Shown here: one piece after another, positions 1-11,598 of the stretch
How positions within the stretch are numbered: position 1 is the stretch's first letter
Layout: each line of letters opens with the position of its first letter
Assembly (NCBI GenBank): GCA_023488945.1
Contig: JAMDBZ010000049.1
Location: 1 to 11,695, forward strand
Source: Deltaproteobacteria bacterium
GTDB lineage: Bacteria > Desulfobacterota_E > Deferrimicrobia > Deferrimicrobiales > Deferrimicrobiaceae
DNA: 11,695 nt
Reading direction: 5' to 3'
Notes under the pieces: generated by a model
The model's database searches: none
What the model saw: only the letters and a program-made list of their open reading frames with translations
What the model was told of the DNA's origin: nothing
Position numbers and translations under genes: made by a program

Positions 1-68
1 GGCCGCCCGCTCCGCCTTCTCCCGGTAAGCCCTCGTGTTCCTTCCCTCCGATATCCGCTCTCGCTCAC
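1..68 (-). CDS. Possible start of an unidentified gene, cut by window edge
   Basis: A GTG codon at 68-66 follows a good Shine-Dalgarno sequence (AAGGAG, 6 nt spacer). It lies about 55 nt downstream of the start site predicted from the sigma-54 promoter at 136-150, which is why I call a gene here. Only 22 codons are visible, giving a basic, arginine-rich start (SESGYRREGTRG after the first residue). An overlapping frame reads more like normal protein (YREKAERAA) and has better GC at third positions, but it has no usual start codon after its upstream stop. The frame is therefore uncertain, and so is whether this is a protein gene at all. No function can be assigned. Confidence 0.33.
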   Translation of the reverse strand, partial: MSESGYRREGTRGLTGRRRSGR

Positions 69-135
69 TGTCCTCTCCTTCCGTTCGTCAGTTCGCCGGG
101 GAAACCGCTCCGGACCGGTTGACGGGCGGGTAAAA

Positions 136-150
136 GCAGCCCCCGTGCCA
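136..150 (-). promoter_or_regulatory. Sigma-54 (-24/-12) promoter 1
   Basis: On the minus strand the sequence reads TGGCACGGGGGCTGC. It has the invariant GG (149-148) and GC (137-136) exactly 10 nt apart and differs from the usual TGGCACG-N4-TTGC only at the first T of the -12 element. Predicted transcription starts near position 124. The enhancer-like element at 237-268 lies 88 bp upstream of the -24 G. It would drive the possible gene beginning at 68. Confidence 0.68.
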
Positions 151-236
151 ATGCGTCCGACGAACGGCAACATCCCGGAAAACCAGGGGTCCCATGGGAA
201 AAAACGCGCGGGCGGAACGAATCGGGGAAGTCGTCC

Positions 237-268
237 GAAGAATATTGTTCAAACAATGAGGAGTATTC
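237..268 (-). promoter_or_regulatory. Enhancer-like upstream element, copy 1
   Basis: On the plus strand this 32-bp stretch starts with GAAGAATA, contains GAGGAG and ends with TATTC. The same three blocks occur in the same order and orientation at 865-897. It contains a palindrome, ATTGTT-CA-AACAAT, at 244-257, and its outer GAATA and TATTC are inverted copies of each other. It is AT-rich in a GC-rich setting and is centred about 128 bp upstream of the predicted start of sigma-54 promoter 1, a normal place for an NtrC-type activator site. Binding by the response regulator at 3971-5347 is inference. Confidence 0.55.
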
Positions 269-396
269 GACAGGCCAGAGGAGGATGTGCCGGGCCGCGG
301 ACCGAATAACGAGAGGGAACGCCCGGCGACGAGGCGAACACCGCGTGACCGGGAAGGAAGAAGCCGGGACTGGAGGTTTGGAGAAGTTCCGGCGGG

Positions 397-443
397 AAGG
401 GGAACGGCGCGGTCCCCTTTCGGGCGGCCGCGCCGTTCCCCTT
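397..443 (-). terminator. Strong 16-bp hairpin after the small exported gene
   Basis: The arms 397-412 (AAGGGGAACGGCGCGG) and 428-443 are perfect reverse complements over 16 bp, with a 15-nt loop. The hairpin begins 28 nt after the stop of the 471-722 gene. No run of U follows it on the minus strand, so it may act as an mRNA end-stabilising structure or a non-canonical terminator. The rest of 269-396 shows nothing I recognise. Confidence 0.6.
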
Positions 444-470
444 GCACCGCTTCGAGAGCGGTTCGGCAGG

Positions 471-722
471 TTACGGCGTGTCGATGCCCCCCCGGTAGAG
501 TCGGCCGCCGACTTCGACCACGACGTCCTTCCCCTTGGCCAGAGCGCTCTTCCCGGAGGCATCCGAGAAGTAACCCACCGGGAGTTTCCCGGTCTCCAGC
601 GCCTCCTGGTATTGCCAGGTTCCCTGTTCGGGCGCGCTCTTCCCCGCCGCCCACGCCGCGCCGCCGGCAATCATGGTTGCCACCGCTGCGACCGTCACGA
701 TCGTCAAAATGCGGGATTTCAT
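471..722 (-). CDS. Small exported protein of unknown function
   Basis: This encodes 83 residues. Residues 1-25 form a clear Sec signal peptide: MKSR, then a hydrophobic alanine/valine/isoleucine core ending in a likely AWA cleavage site, leaving a mature protein of about 58 residues in the periplasm or outside the cell. The mature part has no Cys, His or membrane segment and ends in a short strand-like region (KDVVVEVGGRLYRGG). I do not recognise the family. The ATG at 722 is chosen over an upstream ATG at 758 because it has a strong AAGGAGGGA ribosome site 7 nt away and opens the signal peptide directly. The 758 start would also lie upstream of the predicted sigma-54 transcription start near 753. 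Promoter 2 (764-779) and the upstream element (865-897) suggest inducible expression through an NtrC-type activator. The position, next to a sigma-54 two-component system, recalls zraP beside zraSR, but no ZraP-like metal-binding motif is visible. Confidence 0.8.
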   Translation of the reverse strand: MKSRILTIVTVAAVATMIAGGAAWAAGKSAPEQGTWQYQEALETGKLPVGYFSDASGKSALAKGKDVVVEVGGRLYRGGIDTP

Positions 723-763
723 TTCGAGTCCCTCCTTTTGTGGAATGTCTGGCGGCATTGGGC

Positions 764-779
764 TGCATCGGGCGTGCCA
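764..779 (-). promoter_or_regulatory. Sigma-54 (-24/-12) promoter 2
   Basis: On the minus strand the sequence reads TGGCACGCCCGATGCA. The GG (778-777) and GC (766-765) are 10 nt apart, with a full TGGCACG -24 box. The -12 box is ATGCA instead of TTGCA. The predicted start is near 753, giving a ~31-nt leader that holds the Shine-Dalgarno sequence of the 722 start. The related element at 865-897 lies 87 bp upstream of the -24 G. Confidence 0.76.
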
Positions 780-808
780 TGGGAGGCTCGGGCGAAATGA
801 CTTGCTGT

Positions 809-825
809 TCCGCCAACTTGGCGGA
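809..825. repeat. 17-bp palindrome between enhancer and promoter 2
   Basis: The sequence TCCGCCAA-C-TTGGCGGA is a perfect 8-bp inverted repeat around one central base. It lies between the upstream element (865-897) and sigma-54 promoter 2, at roughly -56 to -72 from the predicted start. It could bind a dimeric regulator or a second activator. It has no equivalent in the module at 136-268, where the corresponding spacer instead holds a different 10-bp palindrome (TCCCATGGGA, 190-199). Confidence 0.4.
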
Positions 826-864
826 GGATCCCCGCGCCCCCCCTTCGCCCCGGATCGATGATTT

Positions 865-897
865 GAAGAATAGTGTCGAATGGGGAGGAGAATATTC
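865..897 (-). promoter_or_regulatory. Enhancer-like upstream element, copy 2
   Basis: This 33-bp stretch shares GAAGAATA (865-872), GAGGAG and TATTC with copy 1 at 237-268, in the same order and orientation. It also contains the palindrome GAATATTC at 890-897. It begins 30 bp after the stop of the Nramp-Usp gene and is centred about 128 bp upstream of the predicted start of sigma-54 promoter 2. The matching geometry of the two copies is the main reason to regard both as activator sites. Confidence 0.58.
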
Positions 898-926: not shown

Positions 927-2819
927 TCAGGCGCCCGGGCGGCCCACCACCAGCACGGCGATCTTCAGGCGGTGCCGGAGCTCGTCGATCGTGGAGCCGT
1001 GGAGCCAGTCGGCGAAGCCGCGGTGCCCGTGCGCTCCCGCGACGAGGAGCTCCGCGCCGTGCCGATCGACGATTTCGGGGATGGCGCGGACCGGGTGGCC
1101 GAACCCGAGCTCGACTTCCACCTCGACGTCGTACTTGCCGAGCGACACGGCGTATTGTCTCAACCGCTCCAGGTCCTTCCGGCTCTCGGTGTCCTCCGCC
1201 TCGCCGCCGAGCGCGCTCGCCCCGGCGCTTTCGACGCAGTGGATGAGCAGGAGCGGGCAACGGGCGGCCGCGGCAAGCGACGCGGCGCGCGTCAGGACCT
1301 CGTCGTCCGCCGGCCCGAAATCGAGCGCCGCCGCGATCTTCCGGAACGGCCGGGCCGGCTCGATCTCCCGCGGCTCCTCCTCGCCGTGGACGCTCGCCGG
1401 CGGGCGCCGGACCCTCCGGCGGGAGATCCACGGCTCCAGCAGGACGAACAGGAGCAGAAGCCCCACGGCGACGGCAGCCGGCAAAACGAGCGCCCGGGCC
1501 ACGGTCCCGACGGTCCCGCCCACGGAAATCCACCCCCCCACCTCATCGACCACAAGCTTCACGTTCAGGAGGGCGATGATCCCGGCGCACAGCCACGCCA
1601 GCGCCCGGACCCAGCCCGTGACCGCGAACGCTCCCATCTGCTTCCGGTCACTCACCATGTGGATCAGGGGAACGACGGCGAAGGAGAGCTGGAGGGAGAG
1701 GACGACCTGGCTCAGGACCAGGAGATTCCCGAGCTTCCCCTCGCCGAACCAGGCGATGGTCGCGATCGCGGGCACGATCGCGAGCGCCCGGGTCACCATC
1801 CGCCGGAGCCATGGCCGCAGCCGGATGTTCACGAACCCTTCCATCACGATCTGTCCGGCGAGCGTCCCCGTGATGGTCGAGCTCTGCCCGGAGCAGATGA
1901 GCGCCACCGCGAACAGGACCGGTGCCAGGGAGTTCCCGACGATCGGCGCCAGAAGCCTGTGGGCCTCCTGGATCTGGGCGACCTCGGTGTAGCCGGCCCG
2001 GAAGAAGACGGCGGCTGACAGGACCAGGATCGCCGCGTTCGTGAAGAAGGCGAGGTTGAGCGCCACCACGGAGTCGACGAGGTTGAATTTCAGCGACTGG
2101 CGGATTCCGCCCGCGGTCTTGATCACCCGGCGCGACTGGACGAGCGAGGAGTGGAGATACAGGTTGTGCGGCATCACCGTCGCCCCCAGGATCCCGATCG
2201 CGAAGTACAGGGCGCTGGAATCCGGCAGGGCCGGCATGAACCCGCGGAGGATCCCCGCCCCGTCCGGGCGGGACAGGAGGATCTCGACGAGGAAGCAGGC
2301 GCCGATCGTCCCGATGAGGACCACGATGAACGCCTCCATCTTCCGGATCCCCGCGTGGTGGAGGAGGAGGAGGAGGAAGGTGTCCAGGGCGGTGATCAGC
2401 ACACCGTACAGGAGGGGGATCCCGAACAGAAGCTGCAGGCCGATGGCCGACCCGACCACCTCGGCGATGTCACACGCGGCGATGGCGACCTCGCACAGGA
2501 TCCACAGGACCGCGTTGACCGGCGCCGGATAGCGGTCGCGGCACGCCTGGGCGAGGTCCCTCCCGGAGACGAGCCCCAGACGCGCCGAGAGGCTCTGGAG
2601 GAGCACGGCCATCGCGTTGGACATGAGCAGGACCCAGAGCAGCGCGTAGCCGTACCGGGAGCCGGCGGCGATGTCGGTGGCCCAGTTCCCCGGGTCCATG
2701 TAGCCGACGGAGACGAGGTAGGCCGGTCCGGCGAAGGCGAGGAGGCGCCGCAGGAACCCCCGCGCCTCCGGGATCGCCACCGTCGAATGGACTTCCGAGA
2801 GCGACCTGTCGTCAGCCAC
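927..2819 (-). CDS. Nramp (MntH-type) metal-ion transporter fused to UspA domain
   Basis: This 630-residue inner-membrane protein is predicted to import Mn2+, Fe2+ or a similar divalent ion with protons. Residues ~25-465 are the Nramp/SLC11 transporter, with about 11 membrane segments. The metal-site motifs are intact: DPGN at 42-45 in segment 1 and MPHN at 216-219 in segment 6, whose methionine is typical of transition-metal rather than Mg2+ or Al3+ relatives. A charged linker (466-490) leads to a cytoplasmic UspA domain (~491-627) with the ATP-binding pattern G-x2-G-x9-G-S (G595, G598, G608, S609). E. coli MntH is about 410 residues, so the extra length is the Usp domain. The start is GTG at 2819, overlapping the end of the kinase gene by 8 bp (GTGGCTGA), with GGAGAGG upstream, so translation is probably coupled. 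The Usp domain may sense ATP or energy state and gate uptake; that is inference. No clear hairpin terminator follows. Confidence 0.93.
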   Translation of the reverse strand: MADDRSLSEVHSTVAIPEARGFLRRLLAFAGPAYLVSVGYMDPGNWATDIAAGSRYGYALLWVLLMSNAMAVLLQSLSARLGLVSGRDLAQACRDRYPAPVNAVLWILCEVAIAACDIAEVVGSAIGLQLLFGIPLLYGVLITALDTFLLLLLHHAGIRKMEAFIVVLIGTIGACFLVEILLSRPDGAGILRGFMPALPDSSALYFAIGILGATVMPHNLYLHSSLVQSRRVIKTAGGIRQSLKFNLVDSVVALNLAFFTNAAILVLSAAVFFRAGYTEVAQIQEAHRLLAPIVGNSLAPVLFAVALICSGQSSTITGTLAGQIVMEGFVNIRLRPWLRRMVTRALAIVPAIATIAWFGEGKLGNLLVLSQVVLSLQLSFAVVPLIHMVSDRKQMGAFAVTGWVRALAWLCAGIIALLNVKLVVDEVGGWISVGGTVGTVARALVLPAAVAVGLLLLFVLLEPWISRRRVRRPPASVHGEEEPREIEPARPFRKIAAALDFGPADDEVLTRAASLAAAARCPLLLIHCVESAGASALGGEAEDTESRKDLERLRQYAVSLGKYDVEVEVELGFGHPVRAIPEIVDRHGAELLVAGAHGHRGFADWLHGSTIDELRHRLKIAVLVVGRPGA

Positions 2820-3993
2820 CGGCCTCTCCGCCGGCGGGAAGGGTGAGCGAGAACTCCACCCCCCCGCCGTCCGGCAGGTTCCGCACCGAGAGGACCCCGT
2901 CGTGCTGGTCGGCGATGCGGGAGCAAATCGACAGCCCCAGCCCCGTGCCCCCGTCCTTGGTCGTGTAGAAGGGGTCGAAGATCCGCTCGAGATGATCCTC
3001 CGGGATCGGCGGCCCCGTGTTCGCGACGCGCGTGGCGACGAACTCCCGCTCCCCCCGTTTCTCCCGATGGACGGAGAGCTCCAGCCGCCCGCCGCCCCGC
3101 GGCGCCATCGCCTGGACCGCGTTGATCGCGATGTTGAGGAGGAGCTGGGCCAGGCGGTCGGGGTCGCCCATCACGGACGGCGGCGCGGATCCCCCGTAAG
3201 GACGAACGGCGGTGGCGACCCCTTCGCGGCGCGCCTGGGTCTCCACCAGGGACCCCACCCGTTCCGCGACCTCCCGCATATCGAGGGGACGCCGCTCCGA
3301 GGGAGCCGGCGCCGCGAACGAGAGGAACCGGTCCGCGGTCTGCGCCAGGCGGTCGATCTCCTCCATGTGGATGTCGAGCATCCGCCGCTCGGGCGCCCCC
3401 TCCGGGATGACATCGCGCAGGATCTCGGCCGTCCCCTTCATCGCGTGGAGCGGGTTCTTGATCTCGTGCGCGATCCCCGCCGTCAGCTCTCCCAGCGCCC
3501 CGAGCCGGCCGGCCCGGATCAATTGGGACTCGATCCGGCGCTGCTCATCGAGCGCATCGGACAGCTTTCCGGCCAGCCGCTCCTGCTTCTCCCGCTCGCG
3601 CCGCTCCCGGTCGACGAGGAGCCCCGCAACCACCGCCACGATGTTGTAGAGAACGATCTCGAGCCCCTTTTCGAGGGCATTGCCCGGATCCTGCGCCACG
3701 ATGCTCGTGAAGGCGTGCGGAAAGTAGATGAGGGAGGCGAAGACGGAGAGCGCGATCGCCCCCCTGACGCCCGTGGAAAAGGCGGCGAACAGGATCGGGA
3801 GATAATAGAGGCGGCGCAGGACGTCGTGGACCCAGGCGTGCTGCTCCCCCGTCCGGTAGTGCAGGATGGTGATGACGAGGGACGGAATCCAGGCCGACAG
3901 GACCACCTTCGGGGCGAAGACGGCCCGGAGGTCATCCACGACGGCTGCGGCCAGACCGGTCCTTCCCTTCTCAGGCGTCCCGTCGGATTCCAT
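2812..3993 (-). CDS. Membrane sensor histidine kinase, NtrB/AtoS-like
   Basis: This encodes 393 residues. Residues ~30-128 hold about four membrane segments with almost no periplasmic loop, suggesting that it senses within the membrane or through a partner. A coiled coil (~128-165) joins this to the HisKA domain, with the phosphorylated histidine at H176 in HEIKNPL. The ATPase domain shows the N box (N287 and N291 in LLLNIAINAVQA), a variant G1 box (NTGPPI, with N where D is usual), the F box FDPFYTTK (339-346) and the G2 box GGTGLGLSI (348-356). The G1 change is, as I recall, common in this type of kinase and does not by itself imply inactivity. The ATG at 3993 lies inside the end of the response-regulator gene (23-bp overlap), and the gene overlaps the Nramp-Usp gene by 8 bp. 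It presumably phosphorylates the regulator just upstream. The signal is unknown, but the next gene suggests metal status. Confidence 0.92.
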   Translation of the reverse strand: MESDGTPEKGRTGLAAAVVDDLRAVFAPKVVLSAWIPSLVITILHYRTGEQHAWVHDVLRRLYYLPILFAAFSTGVRGAIALSVFASLIYFPHAFTSIVAQDPGNALEKGLEIVLYNIVAVVAGLLVDRERREREKQERLAGKLSDALDEQRRIESQLIRAGRLGALGELTAGIAHEIKNPLHAMKGTAEILRDVIPEGAPERRMLDIHMEEIDRLAQTADRFLSFAAPAPSERRPLDMREVAERVGSLVETQARREGVATAVRPYGGSAPPSVMGDPDRLAQLLLNIAINAVQAMAPRGGGRLELSVHREKRGEREFVATRVANTGPPIPEDHLERIFDPFYTTKDGGTGLGLSICSRIADQHDGVLSVRNLPDGGGVEFSLTLPAGGEAGG

Positions 3994-5347
3994 ACTTCTC
4001 GATCCGGTAGACGAGGATGTGCCGCGGCACGCGCAGGAAGGCGGCCGCCTGGGTGATGTTGCCCCCCTTGAGCCGAAGCGCGCGCTCGATCACCTTCTTC
4101 TCGAGATCCACCAGGGACAACCCTCCGGGCGGAAGCGGCGGCCAGTCGTCGACCGCCGCCTCGGGCGATCCATCCCCGGCGCGTGTCCCCGGGGGAGAAG
4201 GCGGGAGGTCCTCCGCCGACACCTCGTTGCCGCGGCACAGGATGGCCATCCGCTCGCAGGCGTTCTTGAGCTCCCGGACGTTGCCCGGCCACGGCCGGCG
4301 CGCAAGCTCCTCCATGACGGCGGGCGGCACGGCGATTTCCCTGTCTGCGACCAGCTCTTCAAGGAAACGCCGGACCAGGGGCGGGATATCCTCCGGGCGC
4401 TCCCGCAGCCGCGGGACGTGGATCTCGACGACGTTCAACCGGTAGTAGAGGTCCTCCCGGAACGTCCCCTCGCGGATCCGCTCCATCAGGTCCCGGTTGG
4501 TGGCCGCCACGATCCTTGCGTCGACCGGGATCGGCCGGTCGCCTCCGACCGCATCGACTATCTTTTCCTGGAGCGCGCGAAGCAGCTTCGGCTGGAGGGA
4601 CAACGGAATCTCGCCGATCTCGTCGAGAAACAACGTCCCCCGGGACGCCTGCCGGAACCGGCCGAGCCGGTCCCGGACCGCGCCGGTGAACGCCCCGCGC
4701 GCGTGCCCGAACAGCTCCGACTCCAGGAGCTCCCCGGGGATCGCCGCGCAGTTGACCGCCACGAAAGGCCCCTCGGCACGGGGGGACCGGACGTGGATCC
4801 GGCGGGCCACCGCCTCCTTCCCCGTCCCGCTCTCCCCCGTGATGAGGACGGTCGCGTCGGTCGCCGCGACGCGGTCCGCGACCTCGAGGACCCGCCTCAT
4901 CGCGGGTGAAACGCTGACGATCTCCCGCTCGACGCCGGTCGCGCGGATCCTTAAGGTCCGGACCTCGGTCGCGAGCCGCTTCCGCTCAAGCGCCTTCCCG
5001 ACCGCGAGGAGAAGCTGGTCACGGTGGAACGGCTTCCCGATGAAGTCGTAGGCGCCTTCCTTCATCGCCTCGACCGCCGTCTCCACGTTCCCGAACGCGG
5101 TGATGACGAGGACGGGGACGTCCGACGCCTGGCGGCGCACCGCCTTCAGCACGTCGATCCCCGAGATCCCGGGCATCTTGACGTCGGTAATGACGAGGTC
5201 GAACATCCCGGCGGAAAATGCGGCCAGGCCCTCCCGGCCGTCCGACGCGGCGGTGACCTCGTGGCCGGCCTTCCGGAGATTGAAGAGGGCCACCTCCCGG
5301 CCCGCCCGGTCGTCGTCTATGAAGAGGATGCGCCCGGCCATGGCCAT
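3971..5347 (-). CDS. NtrC-family sigma-54-dependent response regulator
   Basis: This encodes 458 residues in the usual three parts. The receiver (6-120) has the acidic pair at D11/D12, the phosphorylation site D55, T83 and K105. The AAA+ domain (~145-375) has Walker A GESGTGK (171-177), the sigma-54-contacting GAFTGA loop (218-223), Walker B LFLDE (239-243) and arginine-finger-type residues further on. A Fis-type helix-turn-helix lies at ~414-454. It should activate transcription only with sigma-54, from distant upstream sites. The two sigma-54 promoters at 136-150 and 764-779, each with a matching upstream element, are the obvious candidates. The ATG at 5347 is one base after the PIN-gene stop. 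The in-frame ATG at 5341 sits better spaced from GGTGAG and may be the true start. The gene overlaps the kinase gene, so the pair is co-translated. Confidence 0.94.
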   Translation of the reverse strand: MAMAGRILFIDDDRAGREVALFNLRKAGHEVTAASDGREGLAAFSAGMFDLVITDVKMPGISGIDVLKAVRRQASDVPVLVITAFGNVETAVEAMKEGAYDFIGKPFHRDQLLLAVGKALERKRLATEVRTLRIRATGVEREIVSVSPAMRRVLEVADRVAATDATVLITGESGTGKEAVARRIHVRSPRAEGPFVAVNCAAIPGELLESELFGHARGAFTGAVRDRLGRFRQASRGTLFLDEIGEIPLSLQPKLLRALQEKIVDAVGGDRPIPVDARIVAATNRDLMERIREGTFREDLYYRLNVVEIHVPRLRERPEDIPPLVRRFLEELVADREIAVPPAVMEELARRPWPGNVRELKNACERMAILCRGNEVSAEDLPPSPPGTRAGDGSPEAAVDDWPPLPPGGLSLVDLEKKVIERALRLKGGNITQAAAFLRVPRHILVYRIEKYGIRRDA

Positions 5348-5348
5348 C

Positions 5349-5771
5349 TCACCGAATCACCGTCATCCCGAGGGCCGGGAAATCGGCGTCGAAGGAGAGC
5401 ACCGGGATCCCCTTCAGGCGCCCCGTGACGATGGAATACGACAGGAGATCGACGAAGGAAACCTTCCTCCCCGCCGCGTGCCGCGGGAACAGCGCGGCCG
5501 CCGACCGGAATTCCGCCTCCGCCGGCGCGTGGACCCGGAAGCCGGGGAGCGCCTTGAGCACGGCCGCGGCCTCCGAATATCCATAATGGTACAAGAGCAG
5601 CGTGACCGCCTCCCCGACAACGGGCCAGGAGGAATGGATCTCGACCCGTTCCCGGACCGCGTCCCGAAAGAGCTCCTCCGCCCGCTCGTGGAGGTCGTCT
5701 CTTTTGGAAAACAGGGCGATCAGGAAGCCGGCGTCCGCGAAGACGCGCCGGTGGCCGGAGAAACGGGACAC
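5349..5771 (-). CDS. PIN-domain ribonuclease toxin (VapC-like)
   Basis: This encodes 140 residues, the usual size for a single PIN domain. The Mg2+-binding acidic residues are visible in order: D13 (VFADAGFLIALF), E54 (VVGEAVTLL), D108 (SFVDLLSYSI) and D128/D130 (LSFDADF). Such proteins cleave RNA and are held inactive by the partner encoded just upstream. The start is GTG at 5771, 6 bp after the antitoxin stop, with GGAGGT upstream. The stop at 5349 sits one base before the first ATG of the response regulator, so the pair appears to head the same transcript as the two-component system. It could be a free-standing stability or stress module or a post-transcriptional part of this operon; sequence alone cannot decide. 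Confidence 0.85.
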   Translation of the reverse strand: MSRFSGHRRVFADAGFLIALFSKRDDLHERAEELFRDAVRERVEIHSSWPVVGEAVTLLLYHYGYSEAAAVLKALPGFRVHAPAEAEFRSAAALFPRHAAGRKVSFVDLLSYSIVTGRLKGIPVLSFDADFPALGMTVIR

Positions 5772-5777
5772 CCCCCC

Positions 5778-6044
5778 CTACCTCCCGGACTTGCCGTAGA
5801 GAAGATCCTTGTATCGGGCCGCGACCCGCTTTTTCTTCCCCTTGCCGGACGGCAGGGACCCGATGATCTCGATGACCCCCGCCGCCGGATCGGGCGGCGG
5901 AAGCAGCTCGAGCCGGGCGAAGGGCCTCCCTCGCCGGGATATCTCGACAGCTTCGCCGGGCCGCAGGATCCGGTCGAGCCGCGTCAGTTTCTCGCGCGCC
6001 TCCGTAATCGAGAGATGATTGATCTTCACCCGCCGCATTTTCAT
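5778..6044 (-). CDS. Phd/YefM-like antitoxin
   Basis: This encodes 88 residues. Residues ~6-48 match the Phd/YefM DNA-binding fold: an N-terminal strand, then ITEAREKLTRLDRILRPGE and the strand pair VEISRRGRPFARL. The proline- and lysine-rich C-terminal part would bind and neutralise the PIN protein encoded 6 bp downstream. The ATG at 6044 has AGGAGG 8 nt upstream; a second in-frame ATG at 6038 is possible. Proteins of this type usually repress their own promoter, often with the toxin. The duplicated TGTACA-containing sites at 6058-6067 and 6089-6099 flank the promoter and are good candidates for its operator. If so, this antitoxin would also set the level of the downstream two-component and transporter genes. 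Confidence 0.84.
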   Translation of the reverse strand: MKMRRVKINHLSITEAREKLTRLDRILRPGEAVEISRRGRPFARLELLPPPDPAAGVIEIIGSLPSGKGKKKRVAARYKDLLYGKSGR

Positions 6045-8390: not shown

Positions 8391-9956
8391 TCAGATCATG
8401 GGGCCGGCATCCTCCGGCGCCGCTCCGCGCACCGGCCGGTCCCGGAACAGGACCGCCACCGGCCCGGTATCGTTGCGCCGGAACTCGAAGGACAGGCCGT
8501 ATCCGAACGCCAGGCGGGCCACCGTATCGAGGTGGTCGGCCGTGCGGAGCCTGATCGCCACCCGCTCGCCGGCCGCCAGCCGGTCGAGGAACCCGGGCGA
8601 CACGGAGAACTCCACGGGGCCGGCCTCGTGCGACAGGTCCACGAGGTTGCCGTCCGGCTCGGTCGCGAGACGCGCGTCGAGGCGGATCAGCCGGGCGTGC
8701 CCTCCGGCGGCATCGGCCCGGGCCTCCCGGATGATTCCGCCTCCCGCCACGAACCCCCCGACCGAGACGACGAACCGGCCCAGCCGCGGGTTTTCCTCGA
8801 AGGTATCCGCCGCGATCGGGCGGGAGGCGAGGAACGTCACGTTGGCGACCTCGAGGTTCTCCACCCTCTCGGCGTGACGCTCGATCACCTCCAGCGTGGA
8901 GGAGTTGAGCCTCTCCGTGACGGCGGAGAGCGTCACCTCGGTCTCGGACGTGGCCAGCTTCAGGACATATCGGCCGTTAAGGCGCAGCGGCTCGTTCCCG
9001 AGCCAGAACAGCGACGCACCGATCTCCCTCGCCCCGCGCGGCGGCTCGTCCTCCCGCCCCATGACTTCGCCCCGCTCCAGGAAGAGCTCCTCCTCGAAGG
9101 TGATCCCGACGCACTCCCCCGCCGCGGCCCCGGGGAGCAACCCCTTGCCCCACTTCTCCACCGAGCGCACCCGCGCCGCCTTCCCCGACGGGGCGAAGAC
9201 GACGCGGTCGCCCGGGCGAACCTCGCCCGACTCGACCCGCCCGGCGTAGATCCGCTTCCGTTCCTGGATGTACACGTCCTGGACGGGGAACCGGAGCGGC
9301 AGACCGGTCGGCTCGGGCGTCGGGGTGAAGGAATCGAGCGCCGAAAGGAGCGTCGGCCCCGCGTACCACCGCATCCGTTCCGAGGAACGCGCGATGTTGT
9401 CTCCTTCCCGGGCCGAGATGGGGATGACGTAGGACGGGACGATCCCCACCGAGGACAGGAACCGCCGGATCTCCTCCTCCGCCTCGTGGAACGCCTCGCG
9501 GCGGTACGACGCGAGATCCATCTTGTTGACCGCCACCGCCACCTGGCGCAGCCCCAGGAGCGACAGGATGTGGGCGTGGCGCCGCGTCTGCTCCCGGACC
9601 CCTTCCGTCCCGTCCACCAAAAGGATCGCGGCGTCGGCGGCGGCCGCCCCCGTAACCATGTTCTTCAGGAACTCCTTGTGCCCCGGCGCGTCGATGATGA
9701 CATAGGGGCGCCTCGCGGTCCGGAAGAAGCTCTGCGCCGTGTCGATCGTGATATTCTGCTCGCGCTCCTCCTCGAGGGCGTCCATGAGGTAGGCGAACTC
9801 GAACTCCCGTCCCTGCTCCCGGCAGGTCCGCTCGATCTCCCGGTACCGCTCCACGGGGAGCGACCCCGTGTCGTAGAAGAGCCGCCCGATCAGGGTCGAC
9901 TTGCCGTGGTCGACGTGCCCCGCGATGACGATGCGGAGCGTATCGGATACGCTCAT
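8391..9956 (-). CDS. cysN: Sulfate adenylyltransferase GTPase subunit (CysN)
   Basis: This encodes 521 residues. It is the GTPase that drives APS formation from ATP and sulfate together with CysD. The GTP-binding motifs are complete: G1 GHVDHGKS (13-20), G2 threonine in NITID, G3 DAPGH (89-93), G4 NKMD (144-147) and G5 SAR (181-183). EF-Tu-like beta-barrel domains 2 and 3 follow to ~412. The G1 box reads GHVDHGKS, as in EF-Tu-like proteins, where E. coli CysN has GSVDDGKS. After the usual end (GGGIIREA, ~405-412) there are about 110 more residues, against roughly 45 in E. coli CysN. They do not contain an APS-kinase P-loop, so this is not a CysNC fusion. The ATG at 9956 is 16 bp after cysD, with GGGAGGGG upstream. 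It is the last gene of the operon; no strong terminator follows. Confidence 0.93.
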
Positions 9957-9972
9957 CGGTCCCCTCCCGGCG

Positions 9973-10773
9973 TCACATGTAACCCAGCGAGCGCAGCTTC
10001 TGCATCGTGTAGGCCGCCTCGTGGTCCTGGGCCCGCCCCGCCCGCTCCGGCGTCTTCGTGACCTTCAGCTCCTCGACGATCTCGTCGATGGTCGCAGCGT
10101 TCGACTCCACGGGGAAGTTGCACGGCACGCAGCCGAGCGACCGGTACCGCTTCCCGTCCTTCGCAAAGTAGAGGGGGCAGATGGGGATCCCCTCCCTCCG
10201 GATGTACTGCCAGACGTCGAGCTCGGTCCACGACAGAAGCGGGTGGATCCGGACGTGCGTCTCGGCCCCGAAGGAGGTGTTGAACTGGTCCCACAGCTCC
10301 GGCGGCTGGTCCTTGTAGTTCCACTCGAAGTTCTTGTCCCGCGGCGAGAAGACCCGCTCCTTGGCACGCGACCCCTCCTCGTCCCGGCGGATCCCCAGGA
10401 AGATCCCCTTGAAGCCGTGCCGGTCCAGGAGCTGCTGGAGCGCCTGCGTCTTGAGGGCGTTGCAGCAGATGAACCGCCCCTTGTCGGGGTGCATCCCTGC
10501 GCACAGCGCCTCCTCGTTCTTCCCGACGAGAAGCTCCACGCCCCACTCGCGGGCCATCCGGTCCCGGTACTCGATCATCACGGGGTGCTTGAACGTCGTG
10601 TCGATGTGGACGAGGGGGAACGGCACACGGCCGAAAAACGCCTTGCGGGCGAGCCACAGAAGCGTCGTCGAATCCTTCCCGATCGACCACAGCATCGCCA
10701 GGTTGCGGAACTTCCGGAACGCCTCCCGGAAGATGTAGATGCTCTGGTTCTCCAGCGCGTCGAGATGATCCAT
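9973..10773 (-). CDS. cysD: Sulfate adenylyltransferase small subunit (CysD)
   Basis: This encodes 266 residues. It is the ATP-pyrophosphatase-fold catalytic subunit that makes adenosine 5'-phosphosulfate (APS) from ATP and sulfate in the cytoplasm. The P-loop SIGKDS (30-35) opens the fold, and the family stretches [38 protein letters not shown] and [17 protein letters not shown] are all present, as is [12 protein letters not shown] near the end. It lacks the extra N-terminal ~25 residues of the 302-residue E. coli protein, as many bacterial CysD do. The ATG at 10773 has AAGGA upstream. It lies 21 bp after cysH and 16 bp before cysN, in one operon. Confidence 0.96.
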
Positions 10774-10794
10774 CAGGTCACGTCCTTCCCTTTC

Positions 10795-11598
10795 TTACGC
10801 CTTCCGTTCCTTCCGCTTCGGGGCCTGCTCCTTCCCGCCGCCCGTCCGGAGCGGCCCGGAACGGCCATGCAGCCCGCACTCCTTGTGCTCGGGGCGCTCC
10901 CACCACCACCGCCCCGCGCGGGGATCCTCGCCGGGCCGGACCGCCCGGGTGCAGGGGGCGCACCCGATGGAAGGATATCCCATGTCATGAAGCCGGTTGT
11001 AGGGCAGGTCGCGCTCCCGGACGTACCCCCGCACCTGATCATCCGTCCAGTCGGCCAACGGGTTGATCTTGAGGATCCCGCCATGCGCGCCGTCGGTCTC
11101 GAACACGGAGAGACCGGCCCGCGTCACGCCGTGGGCCCGCCGCTGCCCGGTGATCCAGGCGCGCAACCCCGAGAGGGCGCGGGAAAGCGGCTCCACCTTC
11201 CGGATCCGGCAGCACTCGTGGCGGTTCTCGAGCGAATCGCGGAACGAGTAGAGACCCTTGGTCCTCTCGAGCTCCTCCACCGCGGCCCGGTCGGGGAAAT
11301 GCCACTCGATCCGGACGCCGAACTTCCGGCGGAGGCCTTCCGCGGCCTCGTACGTCTCCTCGTTCAAACGCCCGGTGTCCAGGGCGAAGACGCGGGCGTC
11401 CGGCCGGCTCCCGACCATCATCGCGATGAGAACGATGTCCTCCATGCTGAAGCTCGACGCCAGCGCCACGCCGGGGTGATATTCGGACAGGGCCCAAGCG
11501 AGCACCTTCTCGGGCGGTTCCCCGCCGAGCCGGCTCGTGAGGCGCGCGATCTCGTCGCGGGAGATCCTTCCTATATTAATGAACGTGGAATGGTCCAA
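10795..11598 (-). CDS. cysH: APS reductase, Fe-S type (CysH family)
   Basis: This encodes 267 residues. It reduces the sulfate adenylyltransferase product to sulfite and AMP, taking electrons from thioredoxin. The catalytic cysteine is C241 in KECGLH near the C-terminus. Two further cysteine pairs, C129-C130 (ECCRIRK) and C213/C216 (GCAPC), are the ligands of the [4Fe-4S] cluster that marks the APS-using form; PAPS-using enzymes such as E. coli CysH lack them. This agrees with the absence of an APS kinase (cysC) in the visible operon. The N-terminal nucleotide-binding part includes SSFSMEDIVLI and FALDTGRLNEET. The start is TTG at 11598 with GGAGG 5 nt upstream, a rare start that could lower its translation. 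A lysine-rich tail (~255-267) follows the catalytic motif. I use cysH as the family name. Confidence 0.95.
   Translation of the reverse strand: MDHSTFINIGRISRDEIARLTSRLGGEPPEKVLAWALSEYHPGVALASSFSMEDIVLIAMMVGSRPDARVFALDTGRLNEETYEAAEGLRRKFGVRIEWHFPDRAAVEELERTKGLYSFRDSLENRHECCRIRKVEPLSRALSGLRAWITGQRRAHGVTRAGLSVFETDGAHGGILKINPLADWTDDQVRGYVRERDLPYNRLHDMGYPSIGCAPCTRAVRPGEDPRAGRWWWERPEHKECGLHGRSGPLRTGGGKEQAPKRKERKA

Follow-up and report, generated by a model that had tools for sequence, protein, structure and literature searches.

Paired sigma-54 enhancer elements as probable switches of a copper-sensing two-component system and its defence genes

The window, that is, the whole stretch of 11,695 nucleotides analysed here, carries two minus-strand sigma-54 promoters, each behind a similar upstream element, one facing the gene of a small exported protein and the other a gene cut off by the window edge. 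This arrangement raises the question of which regulator would act through the paired elements, in response to which signal and on which genes. The answer favoured here is that a copper-sensing two-component system most likely uses the elements as switches to turn on its defence genes, a reading adopted because they recur near copper-export genes in related bacteria. In linking the module to the window's NtrC-type regulator and to copper, it goes beyond an earlier sequence-only reading of the same DNA.

Promoter 1 (TGGCACGCCCGATGCA) lies at 764-779 (-), with the T of its -24 box 88 bp past the end of UAS1, the candidate enhancer of the small exported protein gene (868-897 (-), 30 bp). Promoter 2 (TGGCACGGGGGCTGCT) lies at 135-150 (-), with its -24 T 89 bp past the end of UAS2, the candidate enhancer of the cut-off gene (240-268 (-), 29 bp). 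Both have the GG-N10-GC spacing and the TGGCACG/TTGCW-like boxes of sigma-54 promoters. UAS1 and UAS2 reach matrix scores of 41.0 and 48.9, both being themselves among the 24 training modules of the weight matrix. The sequence-only reading had located the first promoter exactly and had set the second one base short, at 136-150, being otherwise right about it. Its limits for the elements, 865-897 and 237-268, hold as well, since a TTC comes after 897-868 and 268-240, and so do its distances of 87 and 88 bp between the -24 G and the element, equivalent to 88 and 89 bp when measured between the last base of TATTC and the T of TGG. The blocks it saw shared by the elements (GAAGAATA, GAGGAG and TATTC) are present, and aligned relatives make them parts of two tandem operators, located on the minus strand at about 886-901 (distal) and 864-879 (proximal) in UAS1 and at about 257-272 (distal) and 236-251 (proximal) in UAS2. 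The 16-bp palindrome behind the blocks is visible only in that alignment.

In the aligned relatives, the element consists of two tandem 16-bp operators with the consensus TGAAGAATATTCTTCA. The promoter-proximal operator reads TGAAGAATATTCTTCA, a perfect 16-bp palindrome in the consensus, and the distal one retains GAATAnTCTYCA. The spacing was examined in 54 modules (hits with an element score of at least 20 after merging of registers), which are not independent because they were drawn from related genomes. The operator centres are 22, 21 and 20 bp apart in 41, 6 and 7 of them, that is, about two helical turns, a range partly imposed because the scan admitted only elements 28-30 bp long. The distance from the element's end to the T of TGG is 87-91 bp in 31 of the 54 modules, further copies at the same spacing being what the sequence-only reading had named as support, and 74-79 bp in 16. 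The window's offsets of 88 and 89 bp belong to the main class; rarer offsets are 96-97 bp (three modules), 66-67 bp (two), and 54 and 116 bp (one each), and no module of the 54 has an offset of 68-73, 80-86 or 92-95 bp. The modules thus show conserved paired operators about 100 bp upstream of the promoter, with a set spacing and clustered offsets, as upstream activating sequences of the NtrC type do. A strict 10.5-bp phasing of the promoter spacing is not supported, periods of 11 to 13 bp fitting better, and therefore only the clustering of offsets is claimed. At three places, a single element appears to serve two divergent sigma-54 boxes as a two-way enhancer, with offsets of 76 and 96-97 bp (L103 7655-7684, L218 167-196 and 2592-2621, in genomes G012 and G011; element scores 19-23).

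The relatives were found with the window's regulator as query, 80 of 569 being kept. Three of them (L005, L009, L010), with an element within 1 kb of the regulator, provided together with the window the pattern GAATANTCN{12,16}ANTATTC, which was searched in whole genomes with the reversed pattern as control. It matches 4 of the 9 genomes reached through loci, 15 of the 24 genomes of the order of G007 and 16 of the 26 genomes of its class, the reversed control giving 0 in all three sets. To judge by the 75-85% identity of the regulators and by the gene order, the window probably belongs to the order of G007. The 15 order genomes hold 23 distinct element places, 21 of which have a sigma-54-like box downstream, defined by a hand-made score of at least 12 (reverse orientations reach at most 11.5) in a check that leaves out the element match G029:C111. 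Some of the 21 boxes are imperfect, for example those in L110 (TGGCACGGAATGTGAT) and L108 (CGGCATTCCGTATGCA). The two strict matches without a promoter match, G026:C9 and G004:C115, were dropped and left out of the box rescoring. The weight-matrix scan gave 69 matches, 61 without duplicates (some of these still overlapping registers), in 550,560 bases of loci and 0 in three Markov copies, figures that speak of specificity and not of frequency, because the loci, partly overlapping, were mostly chosen for elements or regulator.

A model of the element's sequence built from 33 sites extends its presence to 19 of the 26 class genomes at E 0.05, among 150 first-look candidates per genome. With the same threshold and number of candidates, no element was found in the regulator-bearing genomes G014, G019 and G001, and G013 and G015 have weaker elements only (best 0.005 and 0.013 among the 150 scored). 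Outside the class, the loose pattern was discarded as mostly noise: in the class of G008 it matches 63 of 149 genomes, but the reversed control matches there too, so that credit is limited to the symmetric sites of G008 and G107. A more stringent palindromic pattern is found in 3 of 395 sampled genomes of the phylum in each of two largely overlapping samples (G007, G008, G017 and G027 for both samples together; control 0), a count that does not measure the element's reach because the pattern also misses most known class sites. No element was found beside the Nannocystis regulator (L007), and L011 has weak AGACTATTC-like sites scoring 19.3 and 13.8, the best shuffle reaching 15.2. Rfam returned nothing in the window at gathering thresholds.

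The gene behind module 1 (ORF 471-722 (-), with GGAGG before the ATG at 722) encodes an 83-aa small protein with a signal-peptide-like start and the motifs ETGxLP and GGxxYRxGIDxP. The mature part has no Cys, His or Met, and the protein is therefore not an obvious metal carrier. It has no Pfam match, and a search with the single sequence gave 17 candidates, none at E 0.001. A profile of 11 members, which have T44, G45, P48, G72, G73, R77 and D81 in common when aligned, recovers 107 proteins at E 0.001 among 7,994 candidates scored. None of these 107 family members has a precomputed Pfam domain, and one of them is named from Candidatus Deferrimicrobium, a hint at the group concerned. Another, P0006, encoded on a contig of 9,584 bases, is 85% identical to the window's protein. 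By the motif rule, and in loci largely chosen for elements, a module lies at most 700 bp upstream in 12 of 14 family members, one of the 12 using its neighbour's module too and the one in L206 being weak; L104:4291 and L212:5596 have none within this distance.

The start of the cut-off gene occupies positions 1-68 (-), with a GTG at 68 (reading MSESGYRREGTRGLTGRRRSGR..) and AGGAG upstream; this GTG is the only ATG, GTG or TTG from 20 nt past the -24 T of promoter 2 to the window edge. The predicted protein does not resemble a response regulator at its N-terminus. A polar, basic N-terminus ahead of a membrane helix is found in several FtrD-like proteins of relatives. In G017 (L106), the gene order is that of the window plus one small ORF: regulator, kinase, Nramp-Usp, element, small Pfam-less ORF, small exported protein and a second element, whose position UAS2 matches. 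Downstream of the second element, all on one strand, come genes for an FtrD-like protein (PF10080), a MacB/FtsX permease, an ABC ATPase, a TolC-type protein and a CusB-type protein that carries a heavy-metal-binding domain, and then a CusA pump gene, read by eye and cut by the end of the fetched locus. Judging from this order and from the Pfam assignments of the G017 genes, there is a good chance that the cut-off gene encodes an FtrD-like membrane protein, and it probably heads an operon for an ABC transporter and CusCBA-type efflux. The second element of G007 stands in front of a second regulator gene and not of one for an FtrD protein.

The genes near elements in other relatives were called by a home-made codon score, and Pfam was run on 19 proteins outside the window plus one more. 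The domains found among the targets are FtrD-like, MacB_PCD/FtsX, OEP, HlyD_D23 with HMBD, ACR_tran, Cu-oxidase, Copper-bind with CusF, and CueP. The targets are mostly copper genes, joined by the Pfam-less small exported family to which the window's protein belongs; from a reading of the matrix scan, the commonest two are FtrD-like proteins, with about 17 modules, and small exported proteins, with about 12. Pfam identifies a full RND pump in L117 of G027, and in L116 of this genome a TolC-type gene stands behind an element, together with genes for a multicopper oxidase and for a fusion of cupredoxin and CusF. A Smithellaceae genome has a CueP gene (PF21172, 1.8e-33) behind an element with TGGCACGCCATTTGTA, in a row that reads kinase, regulator, element, FtsX, ABC, element, CueP, others, TolC, CusB and CusA, Pfam having been run there on CueP only; the element next to the regulator lacks a good box at a suitable distance (score 10.5). 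Two of the three P-type ATPases scanned near elements have a heavy-metal-binding domain. On these assignments, the gene content downstream of the elements is that of copper/silver defence. Conservation upstream of orthologues, whose absence had been named in the sequence-only reading as the outcome that would count against it, was looked for and found at the small exported protein and at copper-efflux operons. The copper clusters also hold a second small family, with some Met/His-rich members and a C-terminal (E/A)GGKKG..F..x-K (L101:10211-10624, L106:6937-7248 and L104:781-1413), which stands directly behind an element in L104 and L106; the members in L101 and L106 have no Pfam match.

The likely activator of both elements is the window's own NtrC-family response regulator (3971-5347 (-)), acting with the sensor histidine kinase encoded at 2812-3993 (-). 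Pfam assigns to the regulator the complete set of NtrC-family domains, namely a receiver, an AAA+ sigma-54 interaction domain (Sigma54_activat) and a Fis-type HTH (HTH_8). Homologues with 75-85% identity (E <= 1e-120) are found in 19 of the 24 genomes of the order of G007. Six of these 24 have two regulator matches (G007 in L206 and L009, G027 in L116, and G002, G003, G004 and G006), and either paralogue could be the binder of the elements. In G021, which has no match at E 1e-120, part of a regulator lies at the end of a contig (L110). The regulator gene has an element overlapping or abutting its 3' end in G007 and G027, and one 26 bp behind it in the Smithellaceae genome. The HTH segment (V/I)PRHxLxYR is common to the class regulators of both paralogue groups and to those of Smithellaceae and Nannocystis, and it differs in most other enhancer-binding proteins fetched; the regulators of L011 and L023 have nearly the same segment and no clear element. 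RpoN (PF04552) was found in 24 of the 26 genomes of the class and missed in G004 and G010. Modules also lie upstream of regulator genes in L116, L206 and L225, one regulator copy there being itself placed behind an element in a manner that suggests autoregulation, and in L116 no kinase gene was called beside that copy.

The kinase, assigned by Pfam, has a hydrophobic N-terminal region, with no HAMP match and with DUF4118/MASE1 matches below the cutoff only. LHY, HD, (Y/F)Y-x-PI and YxPH are conserved in this region in the window and in seven relatives, down to Smithellaceae, and a copper site in the membrane is our guess for their role. Adjoining the regulator and kinase genes, and on their strand, is the gene for a fusion of an Nramp-type metal transporter with a universal stress protein domain (927-2819 (-), Pfam). 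The order is kept in L001 and L006, and the fusion gene stands beside the regulator and kinase also in G017, G021 and G022 (loci L106, L110 and L112). L001 (JAENIX010000210.1) is titled Actinomycetota, its regulator being 83% identical and its genome falling in the order of G007, and its label or binning looks wrong; the regulator there has one in-frame TGA. In L008 (10001-11364), the regulator is split over two frames (tblastn pieces 3-280 and 281-457) by a frameshift or an assembly error. Elsewhere in the window, an 88-aa antitoxin-like ORF that has no Pfam match and, behind it, the gene of a PIN-domain protein lie upstream of the regulator (5349-6044 (-)), the two being a possible toxin-antitoxin pair, and genes at 8391-11598 (-) look by eye like those of sulfate assimilation (sulfate adenylyltransferase subunits 1 and 2 and a PAPS/APS-reductase-like protein).

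The full reading, to which we give a probability of about 0.8, thus comprises tandem-operator enhancers bound by the regulator, sigma-54 promoters, a copper/silver-sensing kinase and copper-efflux targets. In the proposed sequence of events, the kinase would respond to copper (or silver), probably within the membrane or on its outer surface, by phosphorylating the NtrC-type regulator. The phosphorylated regulator would bind the paired TGAAGAATATTCTTCA operators of each element and loop to RNA polymerase with sigma-54 at the -24/-12 box, where its ATPase domain would open the promoter. Module 1 would in this way drive the small exported protein, and module 2 the cut-off gene, most likely FtrD-like, heading the genes of a MacB-type ABC transporter and a CusCBA-type efflux operon. 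Comparison among relatives establishes the element, its spacing, the classes of its targets and its presence beside the regulator; the binding of the regulator to the operators, the looping and the metal we infer from gene content and from established knowledge of NtrC-type activators. The system may moreover be a copper regulon of its own kind in a little-studied class, a proposal whose chances we put a little below even, with an intramembrane His/Tyr kinase that reads copper, tandem TGAAGAATATTCTTCA operators and a new small exported family in resistance, this family being one of the two most repeated targets without having obvious metal-binding residues.

Other explanations account for part of these data. 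That two stretches of GC-rich sequence look alike by chance has a negligible probability: the window does contain 10 TGGCA words, but TGGCACG-N5-TGC occurs exactly twice with both strands searched, against an average of 0.007 in 300 Markov copies of the window, none of which holds two, and the full module pattern (element, 70-95 bp, box) has two matches in the window and none in the 300 copies. Chance is already refuted by conservation, given the matches of the element pattern across the class and the empty reversed control; the recurrence of the element with a sigma-54-like box upstream of homologous genes in relatives upholds the claim, made from the sequence alone, of conserved function. 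It is also quite improbable that a different enhancer-binding protein, encoded elsewhere, binds the elements and that the adjoining regulator is unrelated to them. The regulator search gave 17 to 112 first-look candidates per genome, so that other sigma-54 activators are likely to exist, and in two genomes with elements, G011 and G020, the regulator has no match at E 1e-120. Nevertheless, the element adjoins the regulator in two classes and also stands upstream of regulator genes, the HTH segment is held in common, and the two have a similar reach (regulator in 19 of 24 genomes, element in 19 of 26).

The signal itself could be a metal or envelope stress of another kind (zinc, lead, iron or damage, as with ZraSR), the sigma-54 module being real and the copper genes part of a broader response, which we regard as unlikely. 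The regulator does adjoin the kinase and an Nramp transporter gene, and in Campylobacter a DUF2318 protein occurs with an ABC transporter in a cluster linked to iron limitation (PMC10783030). Yet the targets and neighbours beyond the window are for the most part specific to copper (multicopper oxidase, CusF/cupredoxin, CueP), and DUF2318 proteins are also found in a copper CsoR regulon (PMC4938975).

Under the copper reading, an uncharacterised NtrC-type two-component system, whose carriers among the relatives are mostly metagenome bins, acquires a likely signal, operator and regulon. The nameless family of small exported proteins receives a first functional lead, copper defence, and the operator allows the genomes of the group to be read for copper genes.

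Among known systems, the CusCFBA copper/silver RND efflux of E. coli is controlled by the two-component system CusSR, CusR being a member of the OmpR family. RND efflux for copper/silver under a two-component system would be common to both cases, whereas the regulator and promoters described here are of sigma-54 type. In ZraSR, a sigma-54 two-component system for metal stress drives a small periplasmic protein as part of the zinc/heavy-metal response. A small exported protein is likewise a predicted target of a sigma-54 two-component system here, but the window's protein differs in having no Pfam match and a mature part without Cys, His and Met, and a ZraP-type family domain was found neither in it by Pfam nor in the 107 family members by precomputed Pfam. 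ZraR is treated in PMC12316311, in which copper was looked for and not found, and copper and heavy-metal words are absent from the main text of PMC4641369 and PMC3333781. A literature search from which subscription papers were largely excluded returned no sigma-54 copper system besides CorSR and no operator of this kind. The FetMP-FetABCDEF cluster of Campylobacter, related to iron limitation, resembles the present clusters in that a DUF2318 protein gene adjoins an ABC transporter; FetA has eight predicted transmembrane segments and a YHS domain (PMC10783030), while the protein found here in copper-efflux clusters has 169-198 aa. The nearest precedent, set beside our system by described domains and genes and not by the CorR sequence, is CorSR of Myxococcus xanthus, in which a regulator with receiver, sigma-54 activation and HTH_8 domains controls copper-tolerance genes, among them the curA operon with a multicopper oxidase, a P1B ATPase and four putative sigma-54 promoters (PMC3707914). 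The main text of that article contains none of the words "binding site", "palindrome" and "repeat". Both systems place copper-tolerance genes under sigma-54 boxes and an NtrC-type regulator, as judged here by gene content in relatives. They differ in the sensor, since CorS has a periplasmic sensor and a HAMP domain (PMC3707914) and the kinase described here no HAMP match and a hydrophobic N-terminus in which His/Tyr are conserved, and in the targets, which here are of CusCBA type, FtrD-like with an ABC transporter, and small exported proteins.
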